Source of the DNA: Rugalucina vietnamica
Lineage: Eukaryota > Mollusca > Bivalvia > Lucinida > Lucinidae
DNA: 64,000 nucleotides
Assembly (NCBI GenBank): GCA_964017185.1
Contig: OZ024870.1
Location: 34,185,621 to 34,249,620, forward strand
Reading direction: 5' to 3'
Part shown: positions 5,476 to 61,970 of the stretch, in pieces
Layout of the letters: each line of letters opens with the position of its first letter
How positions within the stretch are numbered: position 1 is the first letter of the stretch
Position numbers and translations under genes: made by a program
Notes under the pieces: model-generated
Database searches by the model: none
Told to the model about the DNA's origin: nothing
Seen by the model: only the letters and a program-made list of their open reading frames with translations

Positions 5476-5893
5476 GAATGTATGCGATGCCTTATCCTAT
5501 CTCCTGGATAATATTTATATTAGATTTGGAACCAAGTTATACAGACAAATTGTTGGAATCCCGATGGGTACTAATTGCGCCCCTCTCGTAGCTGATCTAT
5601 TTTTATACTGCTACGAAAGAGACTTCATGGATTCTCTTAACCATGACAATCAAGCTGGTGTTATCGATGCCTTTAATTCGACTTCTAGGTACCTCGATGA
5701 CCTTTTGAGCATTGACTCTCCTTATTTTGAAGGCATGGTCAAACAAATTTATCCCCCTGAACTACAGTTGAATAAAGCAAACAACACAGATACCGAAGCC
5801 CCATTTTTAGACTTACATCTTTCTATTGCAAATGGATTCGTTTTTTTCTCTCTAAAATTTATGATAAACGCGATGAATTTGGTTTTGATATAG
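5476..5893 (+). pseudogene. reverse transcriptase fragment
   Basis: Open frame with the RT motifs IPMGTNCAP and YLDD, entered from target DNA at 5476 and therefore lacking the protein's N-terminal part. The upstream ATG at 5435 lies in flanking DNA and is not the real start. Homologous peptide is encoded on the minus strand at 28523-28960, and more distantly near 33780. Confidence 0.8.
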
Positions 5894-7010
5894 TAAACTT
5901 TCCGTTTTGGGATGGTAACGTTCCTCTCCGTGCTTCTTATGGCGTATACATTTCACAACTAATTAGGTTTGCTAGAGTCTGCAATTATGTTGCGGACTTC
6001 AATGCACGAAATAAATGTTTAACAGCCAAACTTCTTAAGCAGGGCTATCGGTATCATAAACTTCGAAAAACTTTTTCTAAATTTTATCGCAGAGACTTTG
6101 AACTGATTTCCAAATTTAACGTTGGGCTAAAGACCCTTTTACGTGAGGGCCTTTCGGAACCAGAATTTTATGGTGACTTGCATTTGGTTTACAAATTTAA
6201 GAAACTTATTGGAAGGAATGATTTTTCTTTTCAATTCAGAAAAATCATTACGCGTTACAGACGTATAGGATATAACTTAAATGTTATGCGACAGTCTGCT
6301 TGCTTAGTTTTCAACCCATTCACGGTTGATAACTATGCTGCCTTCTTTAATTGCACGCTGGTGGGTCGGGCGTCAGACTCTATGATGGCCCCGACATAAA
6401 GCTATTCATTTTAGTTGGTTGGGGCCGGAGCTTCTTGTCTGTTGCTTGGCTCACCGGGGCTCAACTGGTGGTTTTCTTTTGCTCCGGAAGTTATTGGGCG
6501 CCCAGGGATCTCCATCGTCGGGCAGCTTACTCATTCTATGAGTCCTCGTTTTTGATTCATCATGGAATTTATCATGTTTTATTTGTTTGTCCATGATGAT
6601 TCATTGACTAGTTAGAAATTCACTACGAGGACCCAACAACTTACTAAATGTTATGAATCACTGCAGAAGCTGAGGGTGAGGTTAGGATCCTGTAAAACCA
6701 GTTTAAGCCCGCCAGTGATTTTATATTACTGATCGTACCAAGGCGATACTTCTGTGGTGGTTCTTATTGTTTTATGTCTTGGTGTTTAATTTTTTGTGCT
6801 GTTGGCGCCTTATGTATGTTATCATATTTTTAGTTAAGTTTAGGTAACTGAGTGGCCACCTGCTGGGAAAATAGCTGCTCATTCGGCTTACGAAATGTAT
6901 TCATGGTATAAGTACCTTATTGTTAGTTTGTTTTTTTTCCCGCCTCGGTTTTTGGAGTGGGAATCTTTTTCTGATTGCTTCTTTTCCTGATCGTTGCCTA
7001 CTTGTACCTT
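5476..7010 (+). mobile_element. reverse-transcriptase retroelement, 5'-truncated (Penelope-like suspected)
   Basis: A 1,535-bp copy whose limits are set by comparison with the empty site at 4.49 kb. It encodes the C-terminal part of a reverse transcriptase: GIPMGTNCAPLVADLF (a thumb-side RT motif), then RYLDDLLSID, the catalytic aspartate pair. A conserved C-terminal region follows, in another frame, to about 6399. The reading frame shifts at least once near 5890, so the copy is decayed. A ~600-bp 3' untranslated tail ends CCTACTTGTACCTT. No GIY-YIG endonuclease or EN domain is in the retained part, so the class is uncertain. This is the master sequence for at least eleven more fragments in the window. 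Confidence 0.8.
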
Positions 7011-7402: not shown

Positions 7403-9033
7403 CGGTTGTGGCACAGCGTTGTCGTAACATAACACGGTTATCTTTTCGGCCGTACATTTTAAGTCTGCCTCACAATAATAAAGTAAAGAAACAAGAGAAA
7501 TGGCAGGTTATAAGGAGTGTGAATCTCTCTTAATGTAAAACATGGTGTAAGTACGCACAGTTCCAAAATTAATAAAAGTTGGTCCTTTGGTAATCTTAAG
7601 TCAATAATTATTTCAATAATTCGTGGATGCGTTGCTTCAAGAGTTAATTTCCCATCGTTGTTCTCTGCTGTACTCCTCAAGGGACAGTTTATTCTATAAT
7701 AACATCAATAGAAAATTTGCCAGATGACTGCTTAATTAAATTGATCCAAGTCAATAGATTGGGCTAAAGTCTCTTTCTATTAGGAGCCGATTCGATTAAT
7801 AGCAGGAAGATATGATCGGTTTAATGGAGGGTTCGAGCTGGCTAATCGTCTGTGAAAATGTTCTGGTACTGTCTGTGAAATAGTTGTTTGTTTTGTGGTT
7901 TAATATTCGAGTCAACAATTTTTCAGTCATGTCGGGACAGCGCCACCGCATCCAGGGGCTTAGGATAGTGTTGTGTATGTGAAATGTTCTAAATATTTAA
8001 ACCAACTTTTCGAAGCTCATGATACCGATAGCTCTGAAAGACTGTCTCACCTGCTTTATCATCGATGATGCAAACTATTACTGTACACAAACTATATGAA
8101 ATCTAACCAAACTTGATGTATTTTTGGGAAAAATAAGTAGTAATGCATTGAAATGTATCTGTTATTAGTTTTATACAACCTCATTTGAAATATACCAAAC
8201 AGAAATTAAATGTGTATACTCTTATTTTCGTTGTGGAGTTTTATATTAAATACTTCAATACAATATTCCAGAAAATTCTTCTTTATACTTGCATTTTCCT
8301 AATGAGGCATTATAGATGAATGTCGATTCTTTGCATAATATGAAATTTAAACATGACCAACTACACGATCCCTACTTTCGAAAAGTGCGCGCGGCATTGA
8401 AAAATAAAATGCATTCTACCAAGATGAGTGATTTACTATATGTATATATATTCTGGTCTTTCTGAAAACTGATGTCTGTTATCGTATACGTTTCCTTTCT
8501 TTATAGATTCCGTGGTACAGATAATTTTATTAAATGCCGCAATATTATGGCTGTTATTACAAGCCATCTGTCAAAGTATTTATAAAGGAATAAATAAACA
8601 TTGACAAATATTACCAATTTCCTAAATAAAATCGGGACACATCATATCACTCATCCATAACTCTGCCCACTTATGTGAAATAGGACTTGATTTGTCTTGT
8701 TGAATTCCAGTTAAAATCTCATTATGAACAAAATTTGCATTTTGGTGGCGTCCAATTCATTTTTGTAAGTCTTTGGGTGATGGGATAAGTTTCTAACTTT
8801 TATTTTAGTTTTATTGTTCATCTTTATACGCATTTATACTAGTTAGCTAAAGCGATGTTGTTTTTTTTTCCTCAGCCTTTTCAAACTTTTGAAACACATT
8901 TTCTACAAGAGTTTGCCTTATATTGTACAACTGTAAGAATAAGTAAGTAATTTCTTTATTTGGGTAAATATGCAATATATAGCTAGAATATGACGTATTT
9001 CTAAATATTGGTCGACTTAGACGCAAAAAGACC
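7403..9033. other. unassigned intergenic DNA with a SINE-like fragment
   Basis: AT-rich, without coding signal. About 7895-7975 matches the body of the SINE-like family at 32.44 and 42.42 kb (shared GTCAACAATTTTTCAGT and GGACAG.GCCACCGC). Confidence 0.45.
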
Positions 9034-12840: not shown

Positions 12841-13118
12841 TTTATTGGACTCTTGTATCATCTTGATGTGCCTTGGCGACCCTCAGTTTTTCTTTATCAG
12901 TGTCATCTAAGTGAGATGGATGACCTGAAGTACATTAATGGAGCTGAAGCATAAACCGCATTTTAGAATCTCTTCTCGGTGCTCTGAACCGAGATCGTTC
13001 ACCTAGTTGTTACTGTTTCTTCTAAAGTGAAGCGACCATCTTGAACTTATCTGCAAATGTGCAGTTCTGCCACTACCCACTCACCCATCGCCGCATGAAC
13101 TTTGTTCATGTGTAGGTG
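12841..13118. other. TLX intron 1, DNA flanking the LTR element
   Basis: Nothing recognised. It ends in the AGGTG target duplication. Confidence 0.4.
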
Positions 13119-15290
13119 TGTCACGGACTGACTCTACTTAATATAAAGTCAGAGGATACAATGGCTTGTTGTGCCCAACAAATCATGTATCGAATGACCA
13201 AGGGTATACGCTTCCTGCTATGAATGACCAGCAAATCTATGGGAGGGTTCAATTAAACAGAATTTTCAAATTATGATGATTTATTTATAATGATGTTTAA
13301 AGTGAGAAGCAAAGAAGGAGAAAAAAGATAGAAAGAGATTACAAAAAGAAATTACTGAGAAAAGAAAAAAAAAAAATACGTCCTTTGTTCATCAATTTCC
13401 CATTGGCATCTCCGGGTATACTGTCACACGTTCGTCTCACTAGTACACTCCGCACCACTGCTTGCAAAAACAGTCTAGTGTTCCCAATACGAACTGTAGA
13501 CCACGCCCGTCCATTGTAAACCAAACACCAATGATTTTATATCGTCCCGTTTATACCGTCACTGCCACCCCATATAATTTAGCCCAGTTTAGTTTCAGGA
13601 ATTCAGATTACGTCCATAGATTACAATTTCAGCTTCAAGGCCTGAAATAAAGTAACTGTGTCTTAACAACAAAATAACTGATAGTGTCGCAATTTATCAT
13701 AACGAAATCTCCTGCAGCTATGCACGTCACAACATCCAATTGCAAATAACCTCCCACAATTCCGTACCCCGGAACTGTATTAGTTTATTCGCTAGATTGC
13801 TTGTACTATACATATAAACCATAATACTCCAGTATCTACATTGAAACATTTATTCACATGTACGATACAGTTAAACCACATATGTCGCGAACTAACCCTA
13901 GTTCCTTTCCCAGCGACATCACAAGCAAAATCTCCGACATGCATCCACAATTCCTCACCCAGGAATTGGTCCTGCCAATCTATGACCAAATTCATAGAAA
14001 GCCATTTCTCAGAATACGATAAATCTTGCGAGACAATCTTGTTACAATATTAAACCTTTCTTAAATGACATCACTAATTTCAGTAATAGCGAATATTCTT
14101 AATGACGTCATTAACGTCAAATCTAAGCGTTACGTTACTATAACGTAAAACTTAAAATCTGAAATTTCCAGTCTTACAGCTTTGTTCCGAGTCAACATTA
14201 ACTTCCTTTATGATGAGATGATTAGATAACATAACATAACATGAAACTAAATGTACGTCAACGACAATAACGTCACTACAAGTAACGTAGCACATAACAG
14301 AAATTTCCATTTTACAACTTTGGTTGACATACATACCGCGCAATGTCATTCTTACGCGAAATTTAATACATAAAAACTAAACCAATGCCGCTTCACGGCA
14401 ACGTAGCGTGCAGAAATATAGAAATCTTCATTTTTACAACCCTATCAATGTGCTTTCCACCATAATGAGCTACATTATTATGGCTATACAATCTCACTGT
14501 ACAAAATGTATATTTATGAACTGTTATAACTTACCGACGGCCGACTACTCAGACTGGCGCTGACCATAACCAGGTGTACCAGATAAACCCATATCCAAAC
14601 ATCTCAAATTCATGCCCAATCTTTACATTCTTCCGATAATTCATATTGATTTAACACAAAATAAGCTGCCTATTTATACGCATAAGTTTGTGAACATTTC
14701 CCTGAAAACCATACCGTTTTCCATCATATATTCCAAAACCATTCATCAGAACATGTGAATAACCCACCGTGAGCAAGTGAATAACAATTCTAAATGCACA
14801 TCCACTGACAACCACACCCAGATCAGCTTGCAAAAAGTTATATTGCTAACCATAAAATCGGCAATACAAATTTTCTCTGGATTATACCTCAAGGTGTAAA
14901 TCATATGATTCAAATCCCCGGACTTCATGTTTTCGTTAAAGCCGTGTCACTCTCAGAAACCATTTATGGCAAACTGATAAAACACGAATCTGAGCCCAGT
15001 ACAGAATCCAATTAAACTGCACATAATGCCAATTTCCACGCCACAAATCAACAAATACCATAACACAAAAAGAATGTTAAAATATCACAATTGAGCATAA
15101 AATTCTTCATGGCACAAATATTTTTTGCCGTGTCTAACATACATAGATATCCTTGACAATGCAGTAAACATGTCATGTTTACTCCTGTGTAAGAGCTTCC
15201 AAGTACCTATTATGCTCAACTAAACATTTAAAAAATCAAACAAATTATCCAAACCCCACAAACAGCAAAAGTACATTTTTTATCGTGACA
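13119..15290 (-). repeat. 3' LTR of the Gmr1-like element
   Basis: Downstream LTR, the same length and nearly the same sequence as the copy at 21155-23326. The small open frames inside both LTRs appear in identical pairs only because the LTRs are identical, and I do not regard them as genes. The CRE-like palindrome is at 14103-14110 here. Confidence 0.95.
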
Positions 15291-15305
15291 TACCTTCCCC
15301 CTTTT
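15291..15305 (-). other. polypurine tract
   Basis: On the minus strand this reads AAAAGGGGGAAGGTA and directly abuts the 3' LTR, the expected place for the plus-strand primer. Confidence 0.85.
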
Positions 15306-15696
15306 GAAGTGTGAAGCATCTCAACAATGCGTAACACTAGATCTACGCGATAAAAAATTTACTAAATGAAGTCATATCTAGAGAATCATACTTGCAAAAA
15401 CCTGCTTCCACTTATCGCAATCTAAATCTTTTATGATAAATGGAACATACTCGGATCTCGGAGGAAACTGCAAAGCTGCTTTCTTGCCCTTGATTCACTA
15501 CATACGCAACAAATAGATAACCTTAATGCACAATACTCATGTTTCACAGAGTAACACTAATTGAAGTCATATTTAGAAGATTATACTTTCAAGAACCGTA
15601 CCCCGATTACCGCGAACTTAAACTTTCCATGACAATCGGATCTATACTCGGATTCCGGAGGAAACAGCAAAAGCTATCGGCGTTAACCGTAATCCA
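15306..15696 (-). other. 3' untranslated stretch of the Gmr1-like element with an internal direct repeat
   Basis: Between the polyprotein stop and the polypurine tract lie two diverged copies of a ~120-bp segment (about 15357-15480 and 15549-15675). They share AAGTCATAT, ACTCGGAT and GGAGGAAAC. The function is unknown. Confidence 0.6.
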
Positions 15697-18600
15697 CTAA
15701 ATACGCGACAAATAGTCAGCCCCTACGTTCTCAGAACCTTTTATTGCATTTATATGCATTCGATATGGCTGCAAGATGAGAGCCCATCGCATCAATCTTG
15801 AATTCTTGAGTTTAGCCTCATTCAAATACTTTAACGGACAGTGATCTGTTTCAACAATGAAATCAGTGCCATACAAGTATCTTGAAAATTTTTGAACAGC
15901 CCACACCAGTGCTAAACATTCCTTTTCTACAACTGCATAAGCCTTTTCGCTTGGTTTTAATTTCCTGCTGGCATATGCTACTGGAATCTTTTTACCATTT
16001 TCTTCTTGTAGAAGAACTGCTCCTAAACCTACATCTGACGCATCCACTTGAAGCGTAAAAGCTTGTGAAACATCTGCCATTTTTAAAATGGGTTGGTTTA
16101 CTAAAGCCTTACGGAGTTGATTGAATGCCTGTTCTTGTGGCTCACCCCATTGGATTTCATGGTTCTTTTGCCCTTTCCTCGTCAACTCTGTCAAAGGTGC
16201 TGCAATTTCTGAAAAGTGCTCAATAAATGACCTATAGAAACCTACCAATCCAAGGAATGAACGTAACTGTTTCTTGGTAGTTGGTCTTACAGCATTCTGG
16301 ATTGCAACAATTTTCTCCTCGCAAGGTTGGAGTGTATTCTGGCTTACCATATGTCCCAAGCATTCTATACTAGAATATCCTACAAAACACTTACACGGTT
16401 TCACCGTCAAGTTAGCCTCTCGTAGTCTGGACAACAATGATCGCAATACATCTAAATGCTGTTCCCATGTCATGGTAAAGATAATAATATCATCTACAAA
16501 ATTATCAATATTTGACAAATTTTGTAACAATTTCCGCATCAAGCGACTACAACTCGCTTGGGCCGTTACCAAACCGAATGGTAAAACAGTAAATTGGAAT
16601 AACCCTAGCGGTGTCTGGAATGCTGTGTACTGCTTGGAACGGTCAGACAATGGAATTTGCCAGTAACCCTTTGAAAGGTCCATTTTTGTTATCCATTTAT
16701 ATCCTGCCAATTTTGAGAATATTTGTTCCATACTTGGCATAGGCTCAGCATCAAAGACTGTAATTTTGTTTAGCACACGAAAGTCAATACAGAATCTGTT
16801 CGAGTTATCTTTCTTCTTGACAATGACTATGGGTGAGCAATACGGACTTTCTGATCTCTCTATTACCTTTAATTCTAACATATTTCTTACCTCATCTCCT
16901 ACAGCCTCCATCATACTATATGGTAAAGGGTATTGCTTTACTCTAACAGGCGTATCTGTAGTTAATTTAATATCATGTTCCATTAAAGTCGTTCTACCAG
17001 GTTTCTCAGAGAATGTTTCTGGAAATTCTTGTATTAATTCTTCTACTTGTTTCCGTTCTTTTGGATTAAGAGCTGGATTAATATTTACCTGTAACACATC
17101 ACCTACATTTTGTCCTGATGGCGTTTCCACAAGACCCCCTCTACTCTCATCATCCATGTTCTCTACTGTTAAGTCTATCAAAGATACGGCACACACCTGT
17201 GACTCATCTCTAGCTTGACACTCTACATTCCCATCTTGTCGCACAACGTATTGCTTTAACATATTGATGTGAAATAACTTGTCTTTCTTACCCACACGTA
17301 TTTTGTAGTCCAATGGGCTAAGTTTTTCAACCACATCATAAGGTCCCTTCCATGCCATCAATAATTTGTTGTTGTCTGTTGGCAATAACACTAATGCTTT
17401 GTCACCTACCTTCAGTGTCCGTTTTCCCGCTTTCCGGTCATAATGGCGTTTGTATTTCCTTGACATCTTACTCAAATTGTCTTGCGCTATAGCTAGCGTA
17501 GTCTCTAATCGTTCTCTCAATTCGATAACATACTGATATGTGCTTCTCAGACTCTGATCTTGGATTTCTTTGCTCCATAACTGTCTTAGAATTTGCATAG
17601 GACCACGTACTGGCCATCCATATAAAAGCTCAAAGGGTGAAAATCCCAAGCTTTCTTGGGGAGCTTCTCTATAGGCAAACAACAAAGGATCAATATATTT
17701 ATCCCAATCCTTTGGGCGCTCGGCACACATTCTCATGAGCATTTTCTTGATCGTTTGATTGAACCGCTCTACGAGTCCATTACAAATAGGATGGTAAGGG
17801 GTAGTAACTAATTGCTTGAATGATAGTAACCTACTCACTTCTTTCATAATTGATGATGTGTACTGTGACCCTAAATCTGAGAGAATCTCACTCGGTACTC
17901 CTACTCGACTAAAGATACTTACCAATGCCTCTGCCACAGTTTCTGTGTCAATCGACGCTAGTGGTACTGCTTCCGGGTATCTTGTCGCATAGTCAACTAC
18001 AGTGAGTATGAACCGGTTCTTACTGTATGTCACAGGTTTCAAAGGTCCTATCAAATCAGTTGCAACTCTCTTGAATGGTACATCTATTCTAGGCATATTT
18101 CCTAAGGGTGCTCGAATTATCTTACCCTTGGGTACAGTACGTTGACAAATGTCACATGACTGACAAAATCGTTTTATGTCGCTACTGATGCCTGGCCAAT
18201 AAAATTCTGAGAGAACCTTTTGTATGGTTCGTTTAACAGCTAAATGACCTGCCATTATTGACTCGTGAGCCAACTTCATTACCGTTTTGCGAAATTGCTG
18301 TGGCACTATAAGCTGTGTAAATAACCTACCTCGCTCAATGTTCGGCGAGCTAAACTTCCGGTACATCAAGTTATTTTTAATAAAATATGATGCATTCTTA
18401 AGACACTCCTTGGCTTCACACCGTGCCTTCATTACCTTCAAACTCTGATCTTCATTCTGGGCCTTCCGAATTTGATCCGGTGTAACTTCTTGTATAACTA
18501 TTTCTGGTGTCTTCATACTCACATGTGTTCCTTCCTGTTTCTTCTGTGCCCTAGTTTGCACTGCTAATGTTGGCACCCAGTCTATATCCGGTTTGTTGCG

Positions 18601-20454
18601 TTCCCGTGCACCTGGAATATTACCTATGATTAAATCAACCAATGGCTTTTCCACACATAGTGCCAATACTTCCCCTTTGTAATATGGTGTATCAATATTT
18701 ACCTTCACTTCCGGTACAACTCTTGTAGAATAATCTACCATTACCATAGTTTGATTTCTTCCTGTATATGCACCTTCCGGGACTACATGTTTACTTACTA
18801 TCACGCCCGAACATCCAGTATCTCGTAAAACCTCAACCGATTTCTCTTCAACCATTCCTTGTACAGTACTAAGTTCTGAAAGAGATGATACTGAACTCAC
18901 ACTTACTTGGTGTTTCTCATGTATGTTATCCTTACTCTCCATTGCTGCTTTGGAATAACTGACAGTATTTGTATACGTCAAGCAAGCTCCACATTTCTTA
19001 ACATCTGTTGTTGTATCCTCATGACTGTCTTCATATGTAGTCTGTACCTCCGAATCTTTGCTCTGAAAAGTAACCTTCTTTGTTGGTGATCTACCTCTAT
19101 GTCCTACCGCACCTACTTTCATGATACCGGGTTTTAGTTCCGGACACTCCCTCCTGTAATGTGTTCCACCACAATTATAACATTTCAAACCTGGATAGTA
19201 TTTACCTCTTCCTCTTCCATATGAGTTTTGATTATTAGGAATCTGGTCTCTTTTCACTGGTGACCTTGATCTGGATGCTGAATTAGAACGAGATCTACCT
19301 CTGTCATTCTTGAAAGTCAAATTAACAATATCCACATACCTAGCTTCCTTGTAGGAATCCGCCAATTTACTAGCTTGCTCCAACGAAGTTGGTTCTCTCT
19401 CCCGTAGAAATAACTCCAGTTCTCTGTTACAAATAAATGTAAACTGGTCTCTCAACATGAGATCCTGCAAACCTTCAAAAGTTTTAGGAATACCTGACAT
19501 ATCTATCCATCTTGTAAAGTAGCTCTTCAACCGTGCTGAAAACTGCTGAAATGTCTCACCGGTTTCTGGTCTACACTTTCTGTACTTACGCTTGAATCCT
19601 TCCTCTGTTAATTGATACCTTTGTAACAATGCACACTTCAACTTGTCATAGTCCATTGCATCCTCCTGTGGCATCAATGCGTACACATCTAACGCTTTAC
19701 CCTGTAATAACGCACTCAAATCAGTTGCCCATGATTCTCTTTTCCACCCTTGTGCTGTAGCATACCGTTCAAACCTAAGTAAATATGCATCCATTTCGTC
19801 CTTACCTTCATTAAATGCCGGGATTTTAGGCGTTCTTGCCTTAATAGTGTCTCTTGGCGCTGGGATTGGCCTCTCCGCCCTTTGCGCTGTGATCTTCTCC
19901 ATTTCTGCGAAATGTCTTCTGTCCTGTAATTCAATCTGCATTTCATACTCACGTTCTAATTTCTCTCTCTCTGCTACTAACCTCTCTCGTTCCAATGCAA
20001 TCTCTGCCTCATACTTAGCCCTATCTGCAATTCTGATCTTACGCTCTTCATCTGCCTTAAGCTCCATTTCTTCATTTGCATGCCTGTATTGTACTTCCAG
20101 TTCACGCTCTTTTAATTCTTTCTGTCTTACCTTTTCAGCTTCTTGCGCTAGCAACTCATTCCGCTTCAGTTCAATTTCCTGTTTCTTAAGTTGTAATTCA
20201 TACTCCTTAATTTCTCGCTGCTTTTCTTGTTCATCAGCTTTAGCTTTTAACTCGCGCTCATGGCGTTCGCGTTCAGCTCTTACTTCCATCTCGCGGATTT
20301 CGCGTTCTGCTTCTCGACGCTCACGTTCTGCATCACGCGCTGCTTGACGTTCATCACGTAATATTACTTGTTGCTCTGAAACAAACGTATTAAGTGCTTC
20401 ACCTTCAAGACCTAAATCTTTCCCCACTTTGGTTAACTCTTTAACTACATCCAT
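15697..20454 (-). CDS. gag-pol polyprotein of the Gmr1-like element (1585 aa)
   Basis: One uninterrupted frame holds all the element's proteins. Residues 30-195 are a highly charged Glu/Arg/Lys coiled coil. Residues 205-375 are the capsid-like part, whose second half resembles a SCAN domain. A Ser/Arg-rich stretch leads to a CCHC zinc knuckle (C425, C428, H432, C437). The protease motif DTGCSG is at 545-550. Integrase has an HHCC finger (H730, H737, C767, C770), a D-D-E triad (D800, D860, E896) and a GPY module near 1037. Reverse transcriptase spans about 1150-1380 with FVDD at 1319-1322. RNase H runs from about 1465 to the end. Gag and pol share one frame, so no frameshift is needed between them. 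Domain limits are estimates by eye. Confidence 0.95.
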   Translation of the reverse strand: MDVVKELTKVGKDLGLEGEALNTFVSEQQVILRDERQAARDAERERREAEREIREMEVRAERERHERELKAKADEQEKQREIKEYELQLKKQEIELKRNELLAQEAEKVRQKELKERELEVQYRHANEEMELKADEERKIRIADRAKYEAEIALERERLVAEREKLEREYEMQIELQDRRHFAEMEKITAQRAERPIPAPRDTIKARTPKIPAFNEGKDEMDAYLLRFERYATAQGWKRESWATDLSALLQGKALDVYALMPQEDAMDYDKLKCALLQRYQLTEEGFKRKYRKCRPETGETFQQFSARLKSYFTRWIDMSGIPKTFEGLQDLMLRDQFTFICNRELELFLREREPTSLEQASKLADSYKEARYVDIVNLTFKNDRGRSRSNSASRSRSPVKRDQIPNNQNSYGRGRGKYYPGLKCYNCGGTHYRRECPELKPGIMKVGAVGHRGRSPTKKVTFQSKDSEVQTTYEDSHEDTTTDVKKCGACLTYTNTVSYSKAAMESKDNIHEKHQVSVSSVSSLSELSTVQGMVEEKSVEVLRDTGCSGVIVSKHVVPEGAYTGRNQTMVMVDYSTRVVPEVKVNIDTPYYKGEVLALCVEKPLVDLIIGNIPGARERNKPDIDWVPTLAVQTRAQKKQEGTHVSMKTPEIVIQEVTPDQIRKAQNEDQSLKVMKARCEAKECLKNASYFIKNNLMYRKFSSPNIERGRLFTQLIVPQQFRKTVMKLAHESIMAGHLAVKRTIQKVLSEFYWPGISSDIKRFCQSCDICQRTVPKGKIIRAPLGNMPRIDVPFKRVATDLIGPLKPVTYSKNRFILTVVDYATRYPEAVPLASIDTETVAEALVSIFSRVGVPSEILSDLGSQYTSSIMKEVSRLLSFKQLVTTPYHPICNGLVERFNQTIKKMLMRMCAERPKDWDKYIDPLLFAYREAPQESLGFSPFELLYGWPVRGPMQILRQLWSKEIQDQSLRSTYQYVIELRERLETTLAIAQDNLSKMSRKYKRHYDRKAGKRTLKVGDKALVLLPTDNNKLLMAWKGPYDVVEKLSPLDYKIRVGKKDKLFHINMLKQYVVRQDGNVECQARDESQVCAVSLIDLTVENMDDESRGGLVETPSGQNVGDVLQVNINPALNPKERKQVEELIQEFPETFSEKPGRTTLMEHDIKLTTDTPVRVKQYPLPYSMMEAVGDEVRNMLELKVIERSESPYCSPIVIVKKKDNSNRFCIDFRVLNKITVFDAEPMPSMEQIFSKLAGYKWITKMDLSKGYWQIPLSDRSKQYTAFQTPLGLFQFTVLPFGLVTAQASCSRLMRKLLQNLSNIDNFVDDIIIFTMTWEQHLDVLRSLLSRLREANLTVKPCKCFVGYSSIECLGHMVSQNTLQPCEEKIVAIQNAVRPTTKKQLRSFLGLVGFYRSFIEHFSEIAAPLTELTRKGQKNHEIQWGEPQEQAFNQLRKALVNQPILKMADVSQAFTLQVDASDVGLGAVLLQEENGKKIPVAYASRKLKPSEKAYAVVEKECLALVWAVQKFSRYLYGTDFIVETDHCPLKYLNEAKLKNSRLMRWALILQPYRMHINAIKGSENVGADYLSRI

Positions 20455-21134
20455 GATTATTTCCCTTTTGAAAAATTATTACTGTTTGTAAGGATGGTCA
20501 CAATAAAACGAAATCTGAGTTATCAATTGATTCTCAACAACGTAAACTTCACAGTATTCACATCAATAAATAAGCAAAACCCAATGCTTACCAAGCTTCA
20601 ACTTTTGTTTACCAATTGCCTCAACGCAACCTATTCTTAATAACCCATTAAGAATCTCCCAGACATTCTACCACAATCAACTAATGCCTTTAACTGTTGC
20701 GTAACAATTTACAAAAGTAAGCCCATACTCATGAATACTTTCAACAAACCGTTCAATTGACAAACCTCAAATTTCAGGATCACCTGGTGCTTCACTGGTA
20801 CACCCCGTCTCTGGTGCTCGCCAACCCTGACAGTCGGTCGACGGGAATATGAATTATCGGAGGACTCCCATCAGTCTAACCATCGGCCCTCATAACTGAA
20901 ATATACTTTGATATCTTGTTCTTAAGTGACAGTGTGACTGTAACATATACCAGTACAATGAAATTTTAGAGGTTACATTTGCATTATTTTAAACAATTAC
21001 TTTTACTTTGCTTAAGCATTGCTTACTTTGGTACACTAGAGAATTTCACTGTGATTCACATTTGGTTCTCTAAATCCTAGCATATATAAACACCTCCAAG
21101 AGTTACTGATATCCAATGCAGAAATGTTGGGCGT
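20455..21134 (-). other. 5' leader of the Gmr1-like element
   Basis: About 680 bases between the primer site and the gag start. I see no coding potential and no clear structure. It would hold packaging and translation signals if the element follows its family. Confidence 0.6.
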
Positions 21135-21152
21135 ATCCCACTTCTGACACCA
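21135..21152 (-). other. primer-binding site, tRNA-Leu type
   Basis: On the minus strand this reads TGGTGTCAGAAGTGGGAT, two bases inside the 5' LTR. It is complementary to the last 18 bases, including CCA, of animal tRNA-Leu(CAA) as I recall that sequence. It would be the site where minus-strand DNA synthesis starts. Confidence 0.85.
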
Positions 21153-21154
21153 AA

Positions 21155-23326
21155 TGTCACGGACTGACTCTACTTAATATAAAGTCAGAGGATACAATGG
21201 CTTGTTGTGCCCAACAAATCATGTATCGAATGACCAAGGGTATACGCTTCCTGCTATGAATGACCAGCAAATCTATGGGAGGGTTCAATTAAACAGAATT
21301 TTCAAATTATGATGATTTATTTATAATGATGTTTAAAGTGAGAAGCAAAGAAGGAGAAAAAAGATAGAAAGAGATTACAAAAAGAAATTACTGAGAAAAG
21401 AAAAAAAAAAAATACGTCCTTTGTTCATCAATTTCCCATTGGCATCTCCGGGTATACTGTCACACGTTCGTCTCACTAGTACACTCCGCACCACTGCTTG
21501 CAAAAACAGTCTAGTGTTCCCAATACGAACTGTAGACCACGCCCGTCCATTGTAAACCAAACACCAATGATTTTATATCGTCCCGTTTATACCGTCACTG
21601 CCACCCCATATAATTTAGCCCAGTTTAGTTTCAGGAATTCAGATTACGTCCATAGATTACAATTTCAGCTTCAAGGCCTGAAATAAAGTAACTGTGTCTT
21701 AACAACAAAATAACTGATAGTGTCGCAATTTATCATAACGAAATCTCCTGCAGCTATGCACGTCACAACATCCAATTGCAAATAACCTCCCACAATTCCG
21801 TACCCCGGAACTGTATTAGTTTATTCGCTAGATTGCTTGTACTATACATATAAACCATAATACTCCAGTATCTACATTGAAACATTTATTCACATGTACG
21901 ATACAGTTAAACCACATATGTCGCGAACTAACCCTAGTTCCTTTCCCAGCGACATCACAAGCAAAATCTCCGACATGCATCCACAATTCCTCACCCAGGA
22001 ATTGGTCCTGCCAATCTATGACCAAATTCATAGAAAGCCATTTCTCAGAATACGATAAATCTTGCGAGACAATCTTGTTACAATATTAAACCTTTCTTAA
22101 ATGACATCACTAATTTCAGTAATAGCGAATATTCTTAATGACGTCATTAACGTCAAATCTAAGCGTTACGTTACTATAACGTAAAACTTAAAATCTGAAA
22201 TTTCCAGTCTTACAGCTTTGTTCCGAGTCAACATTAACTTCCTTTATGATGAGATGATTAGATAACATAACATAACATGAAACTAAATGTACGTCAACGA
22301 CAATAACGTCACTACAAGTAACGTAGCACATAACAGAAATTTCCATTTTACAACTTTGGTTGACATACATACCGCGCAATGTCATTCTTACGCGAAATTT
22401 AATACATAAAAACTAAACCAATGCCGCTTCACGGCAACGTAGCGTGCAGAAATATAGAAATCTTCATTTTTACAACCCTATCAATGTGCTTTCCACCATA
22501 ATGAGCTACATTATTATGGCTATACAATCTCACTGTACAAAATGTATATTTATGAACTGTTATAACTTACCGACGGCCGACTACTCAGACTGGCGCTGAC
22601 CATAACCAGGTGTACCAGATAAACCCATATCCAAACATCTCAAATTCATGCCCAATCTTTACATTCTTCCGATAATTCATATTGATTTAACACAAAATAA
22701 GCTGCCTATTTATACGCATAAGTTTGTGAACATTTCCCTGAAAACCATACCGTTTTCCATCATATATTCCAAAACCATTCATCAGAACATGTGAATAACC
22801 CACCGTGAGCAAGTGAATAACAATTCTAAATGCACATCCACTGACAACCACACCCAGATCAGCTTGCAAAAAGTTATATTGCTAACCATAAAATCGGCAA
22901 TACAAATTTTCTCTGGATTATACCTCAAGGTGTAAATCATATGATTCAAATCCCCGGACTTCATGTTTTCGTTAAAGCCGTGTCACTCTCAGAAACCATT
23001 TATGGCAAACTGATAAAACACGAATCTGAGCCCAGTACAGAATCCAATTAAACTGCACATAATGCCAATTTCCACGCCACAAATCAACAAATACCATAAC
23101 ACAAAAAGAATGTTAAAATATCACAATTGAGCATAAAATTCTTCATGGCACAAATATTTTTTGCCGTGTCTAACATACATAGATATCCTTGACAATGCAG
23201 TAAACATGTCATGTTTACTCCTGTGTAAGAGTTTCCAAGTACCTATTATGCTCAACTAAACATTTAAAAAATCAAACAAATTATCCAAACCCCACAAACA
23301 GCAAAAGTACATTTTTTATCGTGACA
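21155..23326 (-). repeat. 5' LTR of the Gmr1-like element
   Basis: This 2,172-bp repeat is the upstream LTR because the element reads on the minus strand. Every base sits 8,036 positions from its partner. It contains CRE-like TGACGTCA and further ACGTCA/ACGTTA motifs (around 22139-22330), which may be promoter elements. By eye the two LTRs differ at about one position. Confidence 0.95.
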
Positions 23327-23370
23327 AGGTGTATGTGTTTGATGATATAGTTGAGAATGATGGTGCTTTT

Positions 23371-34898: not shown

Positions 34899-35508
34899 TT
34901 GTGTTACTGATCGTTCCAAGGCGATACTTCTGTGGTGGTTCTTTTTGTTTTATGTCTTGGTGTTTAAAATTTTTTGTGCTGTTGGCGCCTTATGTATGTT
35001 TTCATATTTTTAATTAAGGACAGTCAGTCCCATCCCTAAAATATTGATGGTAGTCCTCTTTGAAAGGCATTTAGCCTACCTTAGGAAAATGTTACAAGCA
35101 TAATCTGCATGTCACCTGAAAGAAGAGAAGATGTTCTTTCCCTTGATATATGCATGTGTTGGGAATATTTTGTAGCCTTTTGTTGACACAATGAGACAGT
35201 TTTAATTGCCTTTTTGCAGTTTATTTGCATCTTCTTTTAAAGTTTTCGAGTTAGAGGTACCTTTTTCTGTGGCAGCCATTAGTTGATAGAGATCTACAAT
35301 AATGTATCAGGGATTTTCGAAATAATGTCTCAAAGCAGAAATACAGCACATTTTGTCACGCAGTTCATAATTAATTGGTCATCCCTAACAAAACCCTTGA
35401 TAGATCAAGAACCGTTCAAAATTAAGAAAATCTGTGATACATTTATCTTTGCCATACTTCAAACCACCCACCCACCAAATATTATGTAGATCCGTCCATA
35501 AATAAATA

Positions 35509-35995
35509 GAGGATATTCAAGTTTTTGGAGTGAATATGAGTTTTATTTCATTGAGTGAAGTGAAAAAAATTTATATTTCATGAGTGCCGAAGGCACGAAT
35601 GAAATATATAATTTTTCACTTCACGAGATGAAATAAAAGTCATATTCACGACAAAAACTTGAATTTTCTTTTTATTATATTGCATGTAGTCATTGTAACG
35701 TTGCACGCTAAAGCATATGACGCCAAAATCTTAAATGACGTCATTACGTCACGTCATTACGTCGCTATTGTGTGTGAACGTTCATTGCGTCAACAATAGC
35801 ATAGATTATAAAATTTAGTTATGTATAAATTAGAAATGAAACGGTGGAATCGTAATTTGCGTATTCCCAAATCTTATATTTTCACATGTGAAAATATAAC
35901 TTTTTTTATATTTTCACATGTGAAAATATAACTTTTTCAAATATTGGTTATATTTAATACATATTTCTCTATATTTCATCACTTGCCATATAATA
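35509..35995 (+). repeat. fold-back repeat F, copy 1
   Basis: About 487 bp. Its first part is a large imperfect palindrome (TTCATGAGTGCCGAAGGCAC and beyond). It is followed by a cluster of ACGTCA motifs (35737-35766) and two copies of TATTTTCACATGTGAAAATA. The second copy is at 56016-56698 in reverse. Confidence 0.85.
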
Positions 35996-36588
35996 AAAGA
36001 GTTATACCACTTTGAAATCGAAGTTCTTTTGAAAATCAAATTGTCAGATAAACCAAAAAACTGTTTGATGATACAAAATGTCTGTAATCCTCTTGAATAG
36101 GTAGATTCTAGAACATGGCATCTACACACATCCAATCAGCACTCTGGGAGACTTTGCTACACACCTTTTGGGCTGGTCTGCTTTATCATAGTAGGCCTAA
36201 ATTATGAAAATATTGTTTATTTTAACCAATAGCCTGATCTCCAGTCATGAATACATTTCACGGTCATAAGTTAATGACCTGCCCTAAGTAGTGGAACATT
36301 CTCCAGGAAATCTTCAAAAGGGAGGCATAATCTGCTATCACTTAATGATGGATGTGGAAATTCAACTGTTACAGGAAATGAATGGATTGGGGCAAGTTTA
36401 TTACGTTTTTACTGCCTGTTAGCCTTTGTCTTGGGAAAACCTATGCACATCCCAACCCGTGAGGTTGGATGCAAACCAAGACTTAGTGTTTCATAGTTTA
36501 CATTACACTTTTTACATTGAAATTTAAATTCATCAACTACATGTAGTAAGATTATACTAGATATGCAGTAAAAAAGAAGAAGAAGAAG

Positions 36589-56015: not shown

Positions 56016-56698
56016 TTTATTATATGGCAAGTGATGAAATATAGAGAAATATGTATTAAATATAACCAATATTTGAAAAAGTTATATTTTCACATGTGAA
56101 AATATAAAAAAGTTATATTTTCACATGTGAAAATATAAGATTTGGGAATACGCAAATTACGATTCCACCGTTTCATTTCTAATTTATACATAACTAAATT
56201 TTATAATCTATACTATTGTTGAACCAGATGCAGACAACTAATGAAGTCAATAAAGGTGTGTGAGTATTCAAGGTCAAGGTCATTTCATTATGACTTAATA
56301 CTCCAAGATCAGGCTTCATGTGAGCGTTCTCAGGACCAATGGTCCTCTGGTGTAAGTAAAGCTGGTTGGTTGCCCATAAGGTGTGCCTATTTCATATTAA
56401 TCTATACTATTGTTGACGCAATGAACGTTCACACACAACAGCGACGTAATCACGTGACGTAATGATGTCATTTAAGATTTTGACGTCATATGCTTTAGCG
56501 CGCAACGTTACAATGACTACATGCAATATAATAAAAAGAAAATTCAAGTTTTTGTCGTGAATATGACTTTTATTTCATCTCGTGAAGTGAAAAATTATAT
56601 ATTTCATTCGTGCCTTCGGCACTCATGAAATATAAAAAATTTTCACTTCACTCAATGAAATAAAACTCATATTCACTCCAAAAACTTGAATATCCTCT
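56016..56698 (-). repeat. fold-back repeat F, copy 2, with a 175-bp insertion
   Basis: Matches 35509-35995 along its length; 489 bp when the insertion is subtracted. The insertion (56223-56397) is bracketed by a perfect 19-bp duplication, 56204-56222 and 56398-56416. Confidence 0.85.
56223..56397. mobile_element. 175-bp insertion with 19-bp target duplication
   Basis: TAATCTATACTATTGTTGA stands on both sides and only once in the other repeat copy, so this is a genuine insertion. It has no obvious inverted ends and no poly-A tail. A duplication that long suggests LINE-type retroposition of a short RNA, but the source is unknown. Confidence 0.75.
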
Positions 56699-57220
56699 AT
56701 ATATCCCCCCACATACAGATTGGGGAAGTCTTATCAAATGAGCGTTTTACGCAAGAAAGTTTGTTCGTGACAGCACTGATATTTTTTCAAGGGTACCATA
56801 CAATTAATTAATAATGGTGCACTATTTGTTCAGTTAAACTCGGCATATTTTATTTCTATATTCTATATGCTCCTGTTAATAAAACTATCCCATTGAAAAA
56901 GAAAAAATGGACAATTATTTTTTTTTCGTTTTGCCTTTCTGGATTGCTCCATTTTTTGATAATGACCCATATATGTTATAAAAAGATTTAGTCAAGACAA
57001 AATTTATGGGGTGATCAATATGCAACAAATTACAATTTCTGACTTCTCTGGTCAGACTTCTCAATATGTCATTGGCACATCATATACGTATAAACTTACA
57101 AAGTTTGGATACATAAAGTTGAAAATTATTTCCTTAATTCTGTACTTTGCTTAGTATATACATGCTGAACAAAAGGGGTTGGGTATCAAACCTTTAGTCT
57201 GGAAGTTCTAAATGATTTCG

Positions 57221-57261: not shown

Positions 57262-57514
57262 GTTATCTATTTAGTAAGCTTTGTATCCTTAAAGATTGGC
57301 AAATTCGTCGTATAAACGAAAATTTGAGCACTGGTTATTACGGGTGCTCGGAATGTGTATTTCTGTTTCCAAAATTAAACATTATAATAATTGAGTAAAA
57401 GGCATTCATATTCGATGCAGCCATTGCAAGTAGCTTATATGATATGAGAACTTTCTAGAAGTTAAACAGATCGACTACTTTCCCTTTAATTCAAAACTGT
57501 TATAAAGGGTATTG

Positions 57515-57600
57515 TAACATGGCCGAGTGGTTACAGACGCCGTTTCACTGTTCCTCATTAAGCAAACCGACAGGCGTTCGAATCCCACCAGGGTAATATA
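57515..57600 (+). repeat. pseudo-tRNA sequence, copy 1
   Basis: TGGCCGAGTGGTTACAGACG matches a tRNA-Leu/Ser A box and GGCGTTCGAATCCCACC a B box. T-stem pairing is poor (about two of five pairs), so this is a tRNA relic or SINE head. Confidence 0.6.
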
Positions 57601-57692
57601 TAGCATTTGATCATATTTTTGTTTCATTCTATGAATTTTACTTTATTTGTCTTTTGAAACGTTTATTGCCCTACACTAACCAGCTAAACTTA

Positions 57693-57830
57693 AAAAGGTA
57701 CAAGTAGACAACGATCAGGAAAGGATGCAATCAGAAAAAGATTCCCACTCCAAAAACAGAGGTGGGAAAATCTAAATTAACAATTAGGTACTTATACCAT
57801 GAAAACATATCGTAAGCCGAATAATACCGT
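57693..57830 (-). mobile_element. retroelement tail fragment (unit A, first)
   Basis: Reverse of the last ~135 bases of the CTACTTGTACC family. Its counterpart in unit B is about 59876-59985. Confidence 0.75.
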
Positions 57831-58452
57831 TTTACATTACCCTAAAACAATTTCAGATTTAATATTTTTACCCTGTTAGTGGTTCTGGTATGAGTTTCTT
57901 TGGGTTTAAACTGTGTCCTTGACGTCCGCTGTACATGCAAGTGTAATATTTATTACACAATCTCATGTACCCTCGCATATTTTCAAGACACTTTGAAGAA
58001 AAAAGTTGGCAATACCAAATTTTCAAAGTGGTGTTTTCCACTTTGAATAAAAATTCCGAAATGCTATCGACTATTTCCCGAATTATCATTCCATCCACAT
58101 AAACTATGGAATTGTGCATAGTAAAATTGCTTCAAAATGAAACGGAAGTGTGTTGTCTTTAAACGCTTTGAATGAGGAGTTCAATAAAAGGCTAAACTTT
58201 TGTAAAAACGTTGGTTTATATGAATATTGGCCCAGAAACAGGTTAGTATACTGTGACTTCTGAAGCTAGAAACATAGCAGGGTGATTGCAAAACATACAT
58301 GTGGATGACGAATGCACAGGGCAGTGGCGTTTCGTGTGTTGAATCTAAACAGCCACAAATGCCACAGAACACTCATTTTTGTATCGTTGAGCGTACGAAG
58401 AGCTTCGCTACGCTCTGCGACTCACTAATAAGGGTTAAAGGACATTGTGAAA

Positions 58453-58725
58453 AGGTAAAAGTAAGCAATGAACAGGAAATGGCGCAATCAGAATGAAAGT
58501 CCCATTCCAAACACCGAGTCGGAAAGACTAAATTGACAATCAGGTACTAATACAAAGAGAACATATCGTAAACCGAGTAAGCCGCTATTTCCCAATAGGT
58601 GGCCACTCAGTCATCAGGCTTAACTAAATATTCGAAACCGTACGTGAAAAGTGCAAACAGCACAACAATTCAAACACCAAAATATATAAAACAACTAAAC
58701 CACAACTGAGTAAAAATATAAATCG
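58453..58725 (-). mobile_element. retroelement tail fragment (unit A, second)
   Basis: Reverse tail of ~270 bases. Its counterpart in unit B is about 60640-60895. Confidence 0.75.
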
Positions 58726-59183
58726 ACCGTTTATTTTGCCTGTAGACATAAAAGGCCAATATCTTGTGTACGAATGCATGATGGATTGCAAAACACGTGT
58801 CAGAAGTGATCCTTCAAATGCGAAATTATAAAATGCACTACTTTCATAGGGTAAGGCGTAAGTGGCTGTCTGAAATAAAAATGTTCTAAGCATTCAACAT
58901 TGACAACCACATTTGCATATTGAAAAAAAGACATGATAAATTCGTGCAATGCGTGGTGTAGCTTCTAGTAGCATAATTACTGGCTGAAAACCGTGCCGTT
59001 TATGTAATTTCAGCAAATGTTTCGATAACATAAGCGACAACTGTTTTTATTATTCTGACATTGACGTTTTTTAAATGGCTAACTTTATTGCTAACCGATT
59101 AAAGAAAGAAACTGGACTAAAGGAAAAGCGAGGATATCTGAAAAATGTAAAGGGAGTCAGGAGATGAAAGAAAATAAAGGTTT

Positions 59184-59184
59184 A

Positions 59185-59251
<67 letters not shown>
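59184..59251. repeat. GA microsatellite
   Basis: About 34 GA dinucleotides with one AAAG interruption. Confidence 0.95.
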
Positions 59252-59254
<3 letters not shown>

Positions 59255-59767
59255 GGATCCTCATCGAGGAAACCGCTTGGTTGAAGCGATGGTAAAATAC
59301 CAACGCTCTTCGCTCAGACTAAAAGCGTGAGCGGAAATTCTTTCAACATTAAGTTGAAGATCACTTTTCCGTCATTTTGCTGTAGCGCAATAGGGTTAAC
59401 CAGGCCTCACATATACCTCATTGGCACTGGAATCCCTTTCAGCAAAAGCCGGAAAAGGTCGTTAACTTCTTGGAAAATTACCAAGTTAAAATTTCTTCGT
59501 CGAAGCAAGCTAAAGAGAAAAAAGATTTTATTTGAGGAAGGTGTAGAAATCTATTTATTGTTAACCATTAAACTACGTTATTATGGGTGCTACGAATGTA
59601 CATATTAACATAATGATAATTGAGTAAAATGCATTCGTGTTCAATGCAGCCATTGCACGTGGCACATATGATATGAGAACTTTCTAGAAGTTTAACAGAT
59701 CGACTACTTTCCCTTTAATTCAAAACTGTTATAAAGGGGATTGTAACATATAATCTCTTTAGGCCCA

Positions 59768-59850
59768 CTCATAGCCGAGTGGTTACAGACGCCGTTTCAC
59801 TGTTTCAAATTAAGCAAACTGGCAGGCGTTCGAATCCCACCAGGGTAATG
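59768..59850 (+). repeat. pseudo-tRNA sequence, copy 2
   Basis: Same sequence in unit B (AGCCGAGTGGTTACAGACGC ... GCGTTCGAATCCCACC). Confidence 0.6.
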
Positions 59851-61202
59851 GTTGCCCTACACTAACTAGTTAAACTTAAAAAGGTACAAGTAGGCAACGA
59901 TCAGAAAAAGGCGCAATCAGAAAAAGATTCCCACTCCAAAAATCGAGATGGGGAAAAAGTAAACTTATACCACGTAAGCCGAGTAATACAGTTTTACATA
60001 ACATGTAACGTTAAAACAATTTCAGATTTTAATATTTTCCCCAGTTAGTGGTTCTGGTATGAGTTTCTTTTGGTTTAAACTGTGTCCTAGACGTCCGTTG
60101 TACATGCAACTGTAACATTTATTACACAATCTCATGTACCCTCGCATATTTTCAAAACACTTTGAAGAAAAAAGATGACAAGACCAAATTTTCAAAGTGG
60201 TGACTTCCACTTTGAATAAAAATTCTGAAATTCTATCGACTATTTCCCGAATTATCATTCCATCCACATAATCTATGGAACTGTGCATAGTAAAATTGCT
60301 TCAAAATGAAACGGAAGAGTGTTGTCTTTAAAACGCTTTGAAGGAGGAGTTCAATAAAAGGCTAAACTTTTGTAAAAACGTTGGTTTATATGAATATTGG
60401 CCTAGGAACCACAAACTATTTGTAGGTTAGTACATGTATACTGTGACTTCTGAAGCTAGAAACTGCAGGGTGATTGCAAAACACACGTGGATGACGAATG
60501 CTCAGGACAGTGACACTTCGTGTGTTGAAGCAAAATAAATAGCCACAAATGCCATAGAACACTCATTTCTGTATCGCTGAGCGTACGAAGAGCTTCGCTA
60601 CGCTCTGCGACTCACTAATAAGGGTTCAAGGACATTGTGGAAAGTTAAAAGTAAGCAATGATCAAGAAAAGCAATCAGAATGAAAGTCCCACTCCAAACA
60701 CCGAGTCGGAAAGACTAAATTGACAATCAGGTACTAATACAAAGAGAACATATCGTAAACCGAGTAAGCCGCTATTTCCCAATAGGTGGCCACTCAGTCA
60801 TCAGGCTTAACTAAATAAACGTACATGAAAAGTGCAAACAGCACAACAATTCAAACACCAAAACATATAAAACAACTAGAACCACAACAGAGGTAAAATA
60901 TAAATCGACCGTTTTTTTTTTTGCTTGTAGACATAAAACGCCAATATCCTGTGTACGAATGCATGATGGATTGCAAAAAATGTGTCAGAAGTGCACCTTC
61001 AAAGGCAAAATTATAAAATGCACTACATTCATAGGGAAAGGCGTAAGTGGCTGTCTGAAATAAAAATGTTCTAAGCATTCAACATTGACAACCACATTTG
61101 CATATTGAAAAAAAGACATGATAAATTCGTGCAATGCGTGGTGTAGCTTCTAGTAGCACAATTACTGGCTGAAAACCGTGCCGATTGTTTCGATAACATA
61201 AG

Positions 61203-61435
61203 GCTGCGGTCACATAGGAGTAGACTATTCGGGTATACGGTGTACGTTTTTGAGGGCACGCGAATACTTGAAATCAAACATTATGATTTCCTTATACCGG
61301 ATCACATAGGAGGAAACTATTCGAAAAGTTCGTATCGGCGCGTACTATGTGCGTATAGTACAGTATAGTGGGAATCGAACATGTTCGCTTTTCGTATAGC
61401 GTATAGTGGTTTTGCTGGTCTGAATTTTGTATATC
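61203..61435. repeat. insertion between duplicated units
   Basis: Present in unit B/C but not at the matching place in unit A. It contains two copies of TCACATAGGAG.A.ACTATTCG (61210 and 61303) and several CGTATAG motifs. Its type was not recognised. Confidence 0.5.
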
Positions 61436-61888
61436 TTTCAACGTTAAGTGGAAGATCACTTTTCCGTCATTTTGCTGTAGTGCAATAAGAATAACCAGAC
61501 CTCGGATATACCTCATTGGCACTGGAACCCCTTTCAGCAAAAAGCCAGAAAAGGCCGTTAAGTCACTGGAAAATTATCAAGTAAAAATTTCTTGGTCAAA
61601 GCAAGCGAAAGAGGAAAAAGATTTTATTTCAGGAAGGTGTAGAAATCTATTTATTGTTTATCATTAAACTACGTTATTACGGGTGCTAGGAATGTTTATT
61701 TCTGTTTCCAAAATTTAACATTATAATAACTGAGCAAAAGGCATTCTTATTTGATGCAGCCAAGCCACCCATTGCAAGTAGCACATATATGAGAACTTTC
61801 TAGAAGTTGAACAGATCGACTACTTTCCCTTTAATTCAAAACTGTTATTAAGGGGATTTTAACCCTGACATAATCTCTTTAGGCCCAA

Positions 61889-61970
61889 AACATAGCCGAG
61901 TGGTTAAAGACGCCGTTTCACTGTTTCAATTAAACAAACTGGCAGGCGTTCGAATCCCACCTGGCTAATC
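61889..61970 (+). repeat. pseudo-tRNA sequence, copy 3
   Basis: Same sequence in partial unit C (AGCCGAGTGGTTAAAGACGC ... GCGTTCGAATCCCACC). Confidence 0.6.

Follow-up and report, generated by a model that had tools for sequence, protein, structure and literature searches.

Structure and coding capacity of the element

The window, by which we mean the whole stretch of 64,000 nucleotides that was analysed (positions 34185621-34249620 of contig C2 in a host assembly of 1.09 Gb and 47 contigs), carries a complete LTR retrotransposon on its minus strand. The element is bounded by two long terminal repeats (LTRs) and by a duplicated target site, and it encodes Gag, protease (PR), integrase (INT), reverse transcriptase (RT) and RNase H (RH) in a single frame. 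The primer binding site is presumably of the tRNA-Leu type. The coordinates of the features and the evidence for each are included in Table 1.

Table 1. Coordinates of the retrotransposon and its parts in the window
Feature	Position	Strand	Evidence or remark
Complete LTR retrotransposon, 10,208 bp	13119..23326	-	LTR pair and flanks
5' LTR, 2172 bp, TGTCAC...GTGACA	21155..23326	-	99.95% identity to 3' LTR; 1 mismatch, at LTR position 95
3' LTR, 2172 bp	13119..15290	-	direct-repeat pair with 5' LTR
Target site duplication CACCT, 5' side	23327..23331	-	sequence
Target site duplication CACCT, 3' side	13114..13118	-	sequence
Primer binding site TGGTGTCAGAAGTGGGAT, 2 nt past 5' LTR	21135..21152	-	sequence
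Polypurine tract AAAAGGGGGAAGG, precedes 3' LTR	15293..15305	-	sequence
Single Gag-PR-INT-RT-RH frame, 1585 aa, ATG to stop	15697..20454	-	ORF and Pfam
SCAN-type capsid domain, residues 285-371	19342..19602	-	Pfam SCAN, 31.9 bits (cut-off 27)
Zinc knuckle motif CX2CX3HX4C, residues 425-437	19144..19182	-	motif; 1 residue short of the usual CX2CX4HX4C
Protease DTG motif, residues 545-547	18814..18822	-	motif
Integrase H2C2 zinc-binding domain, residues 717-773	18136..18306	-	Pfam Integrase_H2C2, 73.4 bits
Integrase catalytic core with D800, D860, E896	17767..18072	-	Pfam rve (795-889) and residues
Integrase C-terminal GPY module, residues 1037-1067	17254..17346	-	Pfam Integrase_p58_C
Reverse transcriptase, residues 1212-1369	16348..16821	-	Pfam RVT_1, 102.9 bits
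RNase H, residues 1436-1564	15763..16149	-	Pfam RT_RNaseH_2 (1436-1534) and RT_RNaseH (1461-1564)
Stretch replaced in second-class copies by an unrelated segment of ~850 bp	15718..17831	-	blastn of L009-L017 against the element

An initial annotation, made from the raw sequence, had placed a frame of 1585 residues at 15697-20454 and was silent on the strand. These limits are exact for the coding frame, which lies on the minus strand, and the element itself is larger, extending from 13119 to 23326. The integrase residues that had been singled out (H730, H737, C767, C770, D800, D860 and E896) are exactly the residues found at those positions, with a spacing of 35 residues between D860 and E896, and both the Pfam order and the motifs bear out the proposed arrangement in which the integrase with its GPY module (at residue 1037) precedes the reverse transcriptase with its FVDD motif (at residue 1319) and the RNase H. 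Each of the Pfam domains detected in the frame scored above its curated cut-off. The same scan returned no protease or zinc-knuckle family above the limit, and the predicted protease is assigned from the DTG motif and from similarity to relatives.

The protein matches the Ty3 polyprotein of yeast (7q5b) with an E-value of 2.3e-104, most strongly over RT-RNase H. This match, together with the open frames and low pN/pS across copies that are described below, excludes a chance frame. The RT and RNase H are of the gypsy type and the integrase has the H2C2 domain, the DD35E residues and the GPY module of Ty3/gypsy elements (Metaviridae). The one change in 2172 LTR positions corresponds to ~18,000 years at 1.3e-8 per site per year, the rate found in the accessible text of PMC8220671, and to 115,000 years at an assumed rate of 2e-9, so that the insertion is young under either rate.

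Intact copies in the host genome

The host genome was searched with the protein and the best 30 of 6637 candidates were scored, which gave 34 rows; all counts of copies are lower bounds. At least 12 places, including that of the window, are full-length or nearly so at 98-100% identity, and 11 of them are without internal stops. The other rows are one fragment with two stops, four short N-terminal pieces that adjoin places already tallied, and the places without an RT that are the subject of the next section. In 11 of 13 loci (the 12 full-length places and the fragment) the frame is still 1550 aa or longer. After L004 and L043 were dropped from the 13, pN/pS over the 11 loci was 0.143 for Gag, 0.183 for PR, 0.186 for INT and 0.123 for RT-RNase H, the last of which draws on 14 variant codons, 9 of them synonymous and 5 not; the selection of copies with open frames pushes all of these values down somewhat. 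Because pN/pS is 0.12-0.19 throughout the four parts, the polyprotein very probably serves the host copies in its integrase-first form. The LTR identity, the near-identical copies and the pN/pS values point to an element that was recently active in this bivalve.

A second class of copies without reverse transcriptase

At least 17 further places in the host genome (L009-L017 and L026-L033) match the element only up to residues 887-892. The sequences of all 17 were fetched, and the first nine (L009-L017) were compared with the element by blastn. These copies match from the 5' LTR through the leader, Gag, PR and integrase zinc domain to the start of the catalytic core, and all nine diverge at element nt 5495. 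Eight of the nine rejoin the element at nt 7610, just ahead of the stop, and L016 rejoins only at the 3' LTR. The missing stretch comprises the remainder of the integrase and almost the whole of RT and RNase H. The segment found in its place has no relation to the element, is ~850 bp long (856 bp in L009), is 97-99% alike among the eight copies and is mostly absent in L016. The L009 ORF has SCAN, H2C2 and part of rve by Pfam, and no RT.

Five second-class copies were tested, and in each of them the LTR ends are exact, the primer site is that of the element and the insertion is flanked by a perfect 5-bp duplication of its own (ATCAT, ATAGG, ATATG, ACGGG and ACCAC). Because each has its own target duplication and exact LTR ends, these copies moved in the form that lacks the RT. 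The two classes thus share LTR ends and primer site, and the one without RT has insertions of its own.

Identity to the window copy was determined region by region in 14-17 of the 17 second-class copies and in 6-7 of 7 intact-class copies, with copies that cover less than 60% of a region dropped and no intact-class value obtained for the LTR. The second class is 99.2-99.4% identical in the leader, 3' gag, PR, the N-terminal part of the integrase and the 3' untranslated region, and the intact class is 99.1-99.7% identical in these regions; in 5' gag both classes are at 98.4%. In the 223 bases beside the junction the identity of the second class is 88.9% (82.6-98.7), versus 99.9% for the intact class. 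Because the shared parts stay alike while the part linked to the junction keeps an older divergence, we infer repeated template switching between co-packaged RNAs of the two classes. The second class is probably a non-autonomous partner of the intact class, and the recombination and the independent insertions suggest that it has probably been moved by the enzymes of the intact element. As described in the accessible text of PMC11302176, RLG_Quinta/RLG_Cereba of wheat likewise combines the LTR ends and primer site of an autonomous partner with a Gag that is kept and an RT that is lost. The second class described here differs from it in that PR and the front of the integrase are also kept, the host is an animal, and most of the shared parts are ~99% identical.

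Frames of at least 1150 aa are present in 11 of the 17 second-class copies. When the six copies with shorter frames were dropped (one of which, L014 with 1125 aa, retains the whole tail), pN/pS was 0.142 for Gag (bootstrap 0.07-0.27) and 0.137 for PR-INT (bootstrap 0.07-0.27). The database cluster of the second-class ORF has 146 members and that of the intact ORF has 56, which are not genome counts. From these frames and clusters it appears that the second-class Gag is probably made as a protein. The same two observations stand against the alternative that the second class is a passive deletion derivative, which contributes nothing and in which gag is open only through youth or through recombination. 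In favor of this alternative, recombination with the intact class could by itself produce the low values in gag (0.14) and PR-INT, because most of the shared parts show about the same similarity between the classes as within either, and the replacement segment has a pN/pS of 1.35 (bootstrap 0.73-3.38), which indicates no coding constraint among the present copies. We consider that the passive derivative falls only a little short of an even chance.

Whatever its present status, the replacement segment was probably coding at one time. Its open frame has no stops in 284 codons, with 17 and 20 stops in the other forward frames, and none of 20,000 order-1 Markov draws matched it, so the frame is not due to chance. 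A simple hydropathy scan locates a hydrophobic stretch at about residues 1046-1102 of the second-class ORF. A comparison around the catalytic Glu scored above all of 200 shuffles, at only 3.7 bits, and is suggestive of a leftover piece of integrase in the segment. No match to the segment was found in Pfam (E <=0.01) or in the PDB (E <=1). Among proteins of 0.55-1.75 times the length of the whole ORF, a range in which a shorter donor would be invisible, the segment was found in only three clusters, which are 96-98% identical and evidently belong to the same family.

Relatives and phylogeny

A protein search with residues 600-1585 gave 5230 proteins at E <=0.001. The integrase lies ahead of the RT in every one of the best 120 of these, and RT and RNase H are present in 119. 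The order Gag-PR-INT-RT-RH is complete in 105 of the 120, in another 14 Gag or PR, or the two together, could not be recognised, and the remaining one (P0084) has only the start of an RT. One relative, P0002, is practically the window element itself. The mollusc names among the 120 are Mizuhopecten, Argopecten, Gigantopelta, Saccostrea, Crassostrea, Ylistrum, Pecten, Pinctada and Patella, and the other animal names are those of the nemertean Lineus and the echinoderms Lytechinus, Diadema, Antedon, Holothuria and Patiria; among the matches listed, the closest relatives with animal names are molluscs. Unnamed molluscan proteins of the integrase-first kind are common in the databases. Three of the relatives are filed under Candidatus Thiodiazotropha bins, presumably as host contamination, and an additional integrase-first element (L034) is present in a Thiodubiliella bin.

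The relative P0084 is 1275 aa long, is 80% identical over the aligned part and has 649 clustered members (the full-length P0003 has one), and its frame ends seven residues past the end of its RT match. Our guess is that it may represent a second, separately formed family without RT, probably in another species.

Integrase-last elements were needed for comparison. Viral contigs and phages were searched for such references and gave no relative, and a further search of plasmids for integrase-last references gave only the same three records that are described at the end of this section. Four contaminant elements with unbroken frames from the plasmid and genome collections, in which the RT precedes the integrase (L020, L035, L036 and L037), were used together with Ty3 from the PDB. 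Because of their broken frames, L019, L021 and L038 were not included in the trees. Each tree has 33 rows, of which 28 are integrase-first (27 of 121 proteins and L034) and five are integrase-last.

In both trees the 28 integrase-first rows fall on one side of a branch, with support of 93/92 in the RT-RNase H tree and 91/85 in the integrase tree. Both values are moderate, just under the tool's own threshold, with a warning of long outgroup branches; the five integrase-last rows are few and long-branched, and their true hosts are uncertain except for that of Ty3. As the integrase-first rows were already together, the long-branch check called for no further test. The window element adjoins P0003 in both trees, with support of 100/100 for RT-RNase H and 100/99 for the integrase. 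P0005 joins these two in the RT tree (100/100), and its placement by the integrase is not settled.

Gypsy-type retroelements are present in three records filed as plasmids of Wolbachia or Bacillus licheniformis: L019 (NZ_CP087956.1), L020 (NZ_CP065945.1) and L021 (NZ_CP065944.1). The element of L020 carries a chromodomain. All three are probably eukaryotic contamination.

SCAN-type Gag

When the capsid region of the window element alone was compared with the PDB at E <=1, the only matches were ZNF24 (0.39) and PEG3 (0.6), both of which are SCAN domains. A gag profile of 13 rows, which omits P0003, P0016 and P0042 (three of 15 extracted gag pieces), had just two matches at E <=0.1, again the SCAN domains of PEG3 (0.0016) and ZNF24 (0.0046). 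Of the 27 rows chosen for the alignment, 24, including the window protein, show SCAN at E 0.001 and three do not. P0003, which is 81% identical to the element over the searched region, and P0084 score no SCAN, and the scores of P0005 and L034 are under the cut-off. The knuckle spacing CX2CX3HX4C of the window element recurs in 16 of the best 120 of 5230 relatives, the usual spacing is present in 87 and neither in 17. The accessible text of PMC3424704, which cites Emerson and Thomas 2011, traces the SCAN domain back to the Gag protein of a Gmr1-like element. The SCAN-type Gag is a second mark of the Gmr1-like group in the window element.

Assignment to the Gmr1-like group

We are highly confident that the window holds an intact, recently inserted and autonomous Gmr1-like Ty3/gypsy LTR retrotransposon in a bivalve host. 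The name rests on the domain order, on SCAN and on the literature; the searches brought up no authenticated Gmr1 of cod among the matches listed. The proposal that a Ty3/gypsy-type element has the pol order of Ty1/copia is supported by the domains, the RT and the integrase, and its membership in the Gmr1-like group by the order, the two trees and the SCAN-type Gag. In the accessible parts of PMC3587641, PMC8220671, PMC6238403 and PMC2582038, the group (Gmr1 of Atlantic cod, Saugg1, the crustacean GyRex4 type and LGF3 of Lamellibrachia) is described as having the PR-INT-RT-RNase H order too, within a pol of gypsy type, and by PMC3424704 a SCAN-type Gag is common to the group and the window element. 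Set beside these published descriptions, the window element may be distinguished by its 2.2-kb LTRs and its single Gag-Pol frame, and its zinc knuckle is one residue short. Among solved structures, yeast Ty3 (7q5b) has the RT-RNase H and the integrase most similar in sequence to those of the window element; in Ty3, unlike the window element, the integrase (residues 1085-1450) comes after the RNase H (584-1008).

An independent swap of pol domains inside an integrase-last gypsy clade (e.g. Mag) in the host lineage would also give this order, with which it is compatible; nothing positive supports it. The integrase-first order is shared, among the matches listed, by relatives at 51-60% identity in molluscs, a nemertean and echinoderms, and both RT and integrase group with integrase-first relatives. 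The phylogeny of the two domains had been proposed as the check on this point, and it gave no conflicting placement; because the placements agree, against a thin outgroup, an independent rearrangement is not required, and we regard it as very improbable. A Ty1/copia element, or a hybrid with a copia integrase, has the pol order in its favor and can be dismissed, as all matches to the RT, the RNase H and the integrase are of gypsy or retroviral type, the integrase has H2C2 and GPY and its nearest PDB entries are Ty3 (E 1.8e-27) and the integrase of foamy virus, neither RT nor integrase is copia-type in sequence, and the Pfam scan found no copia-type family, although the copia RT has a Pfam family of its own.

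The initial annotation had expected a protostome host to inform on the age and spread of the group. This is not new, as crustacean (2013) and annelid (2021) cases have been published and mollusc proteins are present in the databases. In the accessible text of PMC3587641 (2013), four crustacean elements are called the first Gmr1-like elements of protostomes, and in that of PMC8220671 (2021) the annelid family LGF3 (Lamellibrachia) is placed in Gmr1 by RH, RT and INT. Additionally, the accessible text of PMC8556966 lists Gmr1 among the clades of several phyla, with a polychaete survey of its own that did not recover the clade, and that of PMC4131045 gives a count of ~200 copies of Gmr1-like elements for the frog Silurana. 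The mollusc LTR survey in PMC6238403 has, in its accessible text, a single mention of Gmr1, in the background; it distinguishes 21 clades from RT/RNase H, including Cigr-1 and 16 MolGy clades, some of which may be integrase-first elements under other names. A literature search that covered few subscription papers found no description of a Gmr1-like element in a mollusc.

Proposed mechanism and significance

RNA that starts in the 5' LTR would be translated into one polyprotein, Gag would package the element RNA, and the protease would free the enzymes. The RT would be primed from a tRNA, presumably tRNA-Leu, and the DD35E integrase would insert the DNA at a 5-bp stagger. The integrase-first order would have been inherited from an ancestor common to other integrase-first elements, with no local rearrangement. 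The same enzymes would probably mobilise in trans the second class, in which the LTRs, primer site, Gag and PR are kept and the RT and RNase H are lost together with a portion of the integrase.

The anatomy read from the raw sequence is upheld, and an integrase-first Gmr1-like element that was recently active in a bivalve has many relatives in mollusc data among the matches listed. The occurrence in a protostome is not new; what merits further study is the partner class without RT. In this class one can study, in nature, how such partners originate from integrase-first elements, and whether they supply Gag. A fuller reading, which we hold only tentatively and think unlikely as a whole, is a two-part Gmr1-like system in which intact elements are accompanied by a commoner partner, where a once-coding module of ~284 codons has taken the place of the RT, the RNase H and a portion of the integrase. 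The module has a hydrophobic stretch like that of a membrane protein, and the searches found matches to it only within its own family. Under this reading, partners without RT would be easy to form from a copia-type order, because loss of the 3' part of the frame removes the RT first and spares Gag, the protease and the front of the integrase, and P0084 would be a second, separate case.

Other features of the window and the assembly

The mitochondrial contig C47 (L022 and L023) is 30,680 bp long and has repeated frames. In the 20,000 bases that were examined, COX1 was found by Pfam and nad4L, cox3, nad2, cox2 and nad6 by eye, all on one strand, and the composition is 41% T, 25% G and 6.5% C. 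Large mitochondrial genomes that bear repeats, are rich in G and T and are coded on one strand are typical of bivalves. A serine-rich frame of 429 residues recurs in part elsewhere on the contig; we take this and the repeated frames to resemble the additional frames found in bivalves that carry two mitochondrial lineages.

Within the window, a SECIS_1 match at 6374-6441 (37.4 bits, gathering 35) sits in a dispersed repeat at ~5878-7010 that recurs at several window sites, and it may be a chance match to the repeat or a repeat-borne SECIS. An inverted pair at 35498-35997 and 56016-56704, ~20 kb apart, has the look of an inverted-repeat mobile element: the two are 96.7% identical over 307 bp and 99% identical over 208 bp, and the stretch 35498-35680 is self-complementary. 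A direct duplication of ~1.35 kb at 89% identity (57666-58998 and 59852-61183) has more copies nearby (region 57334-61969), and a tandem array of a 59-bp unit (5.1 copies, 95% matches) is present at 794-1092.
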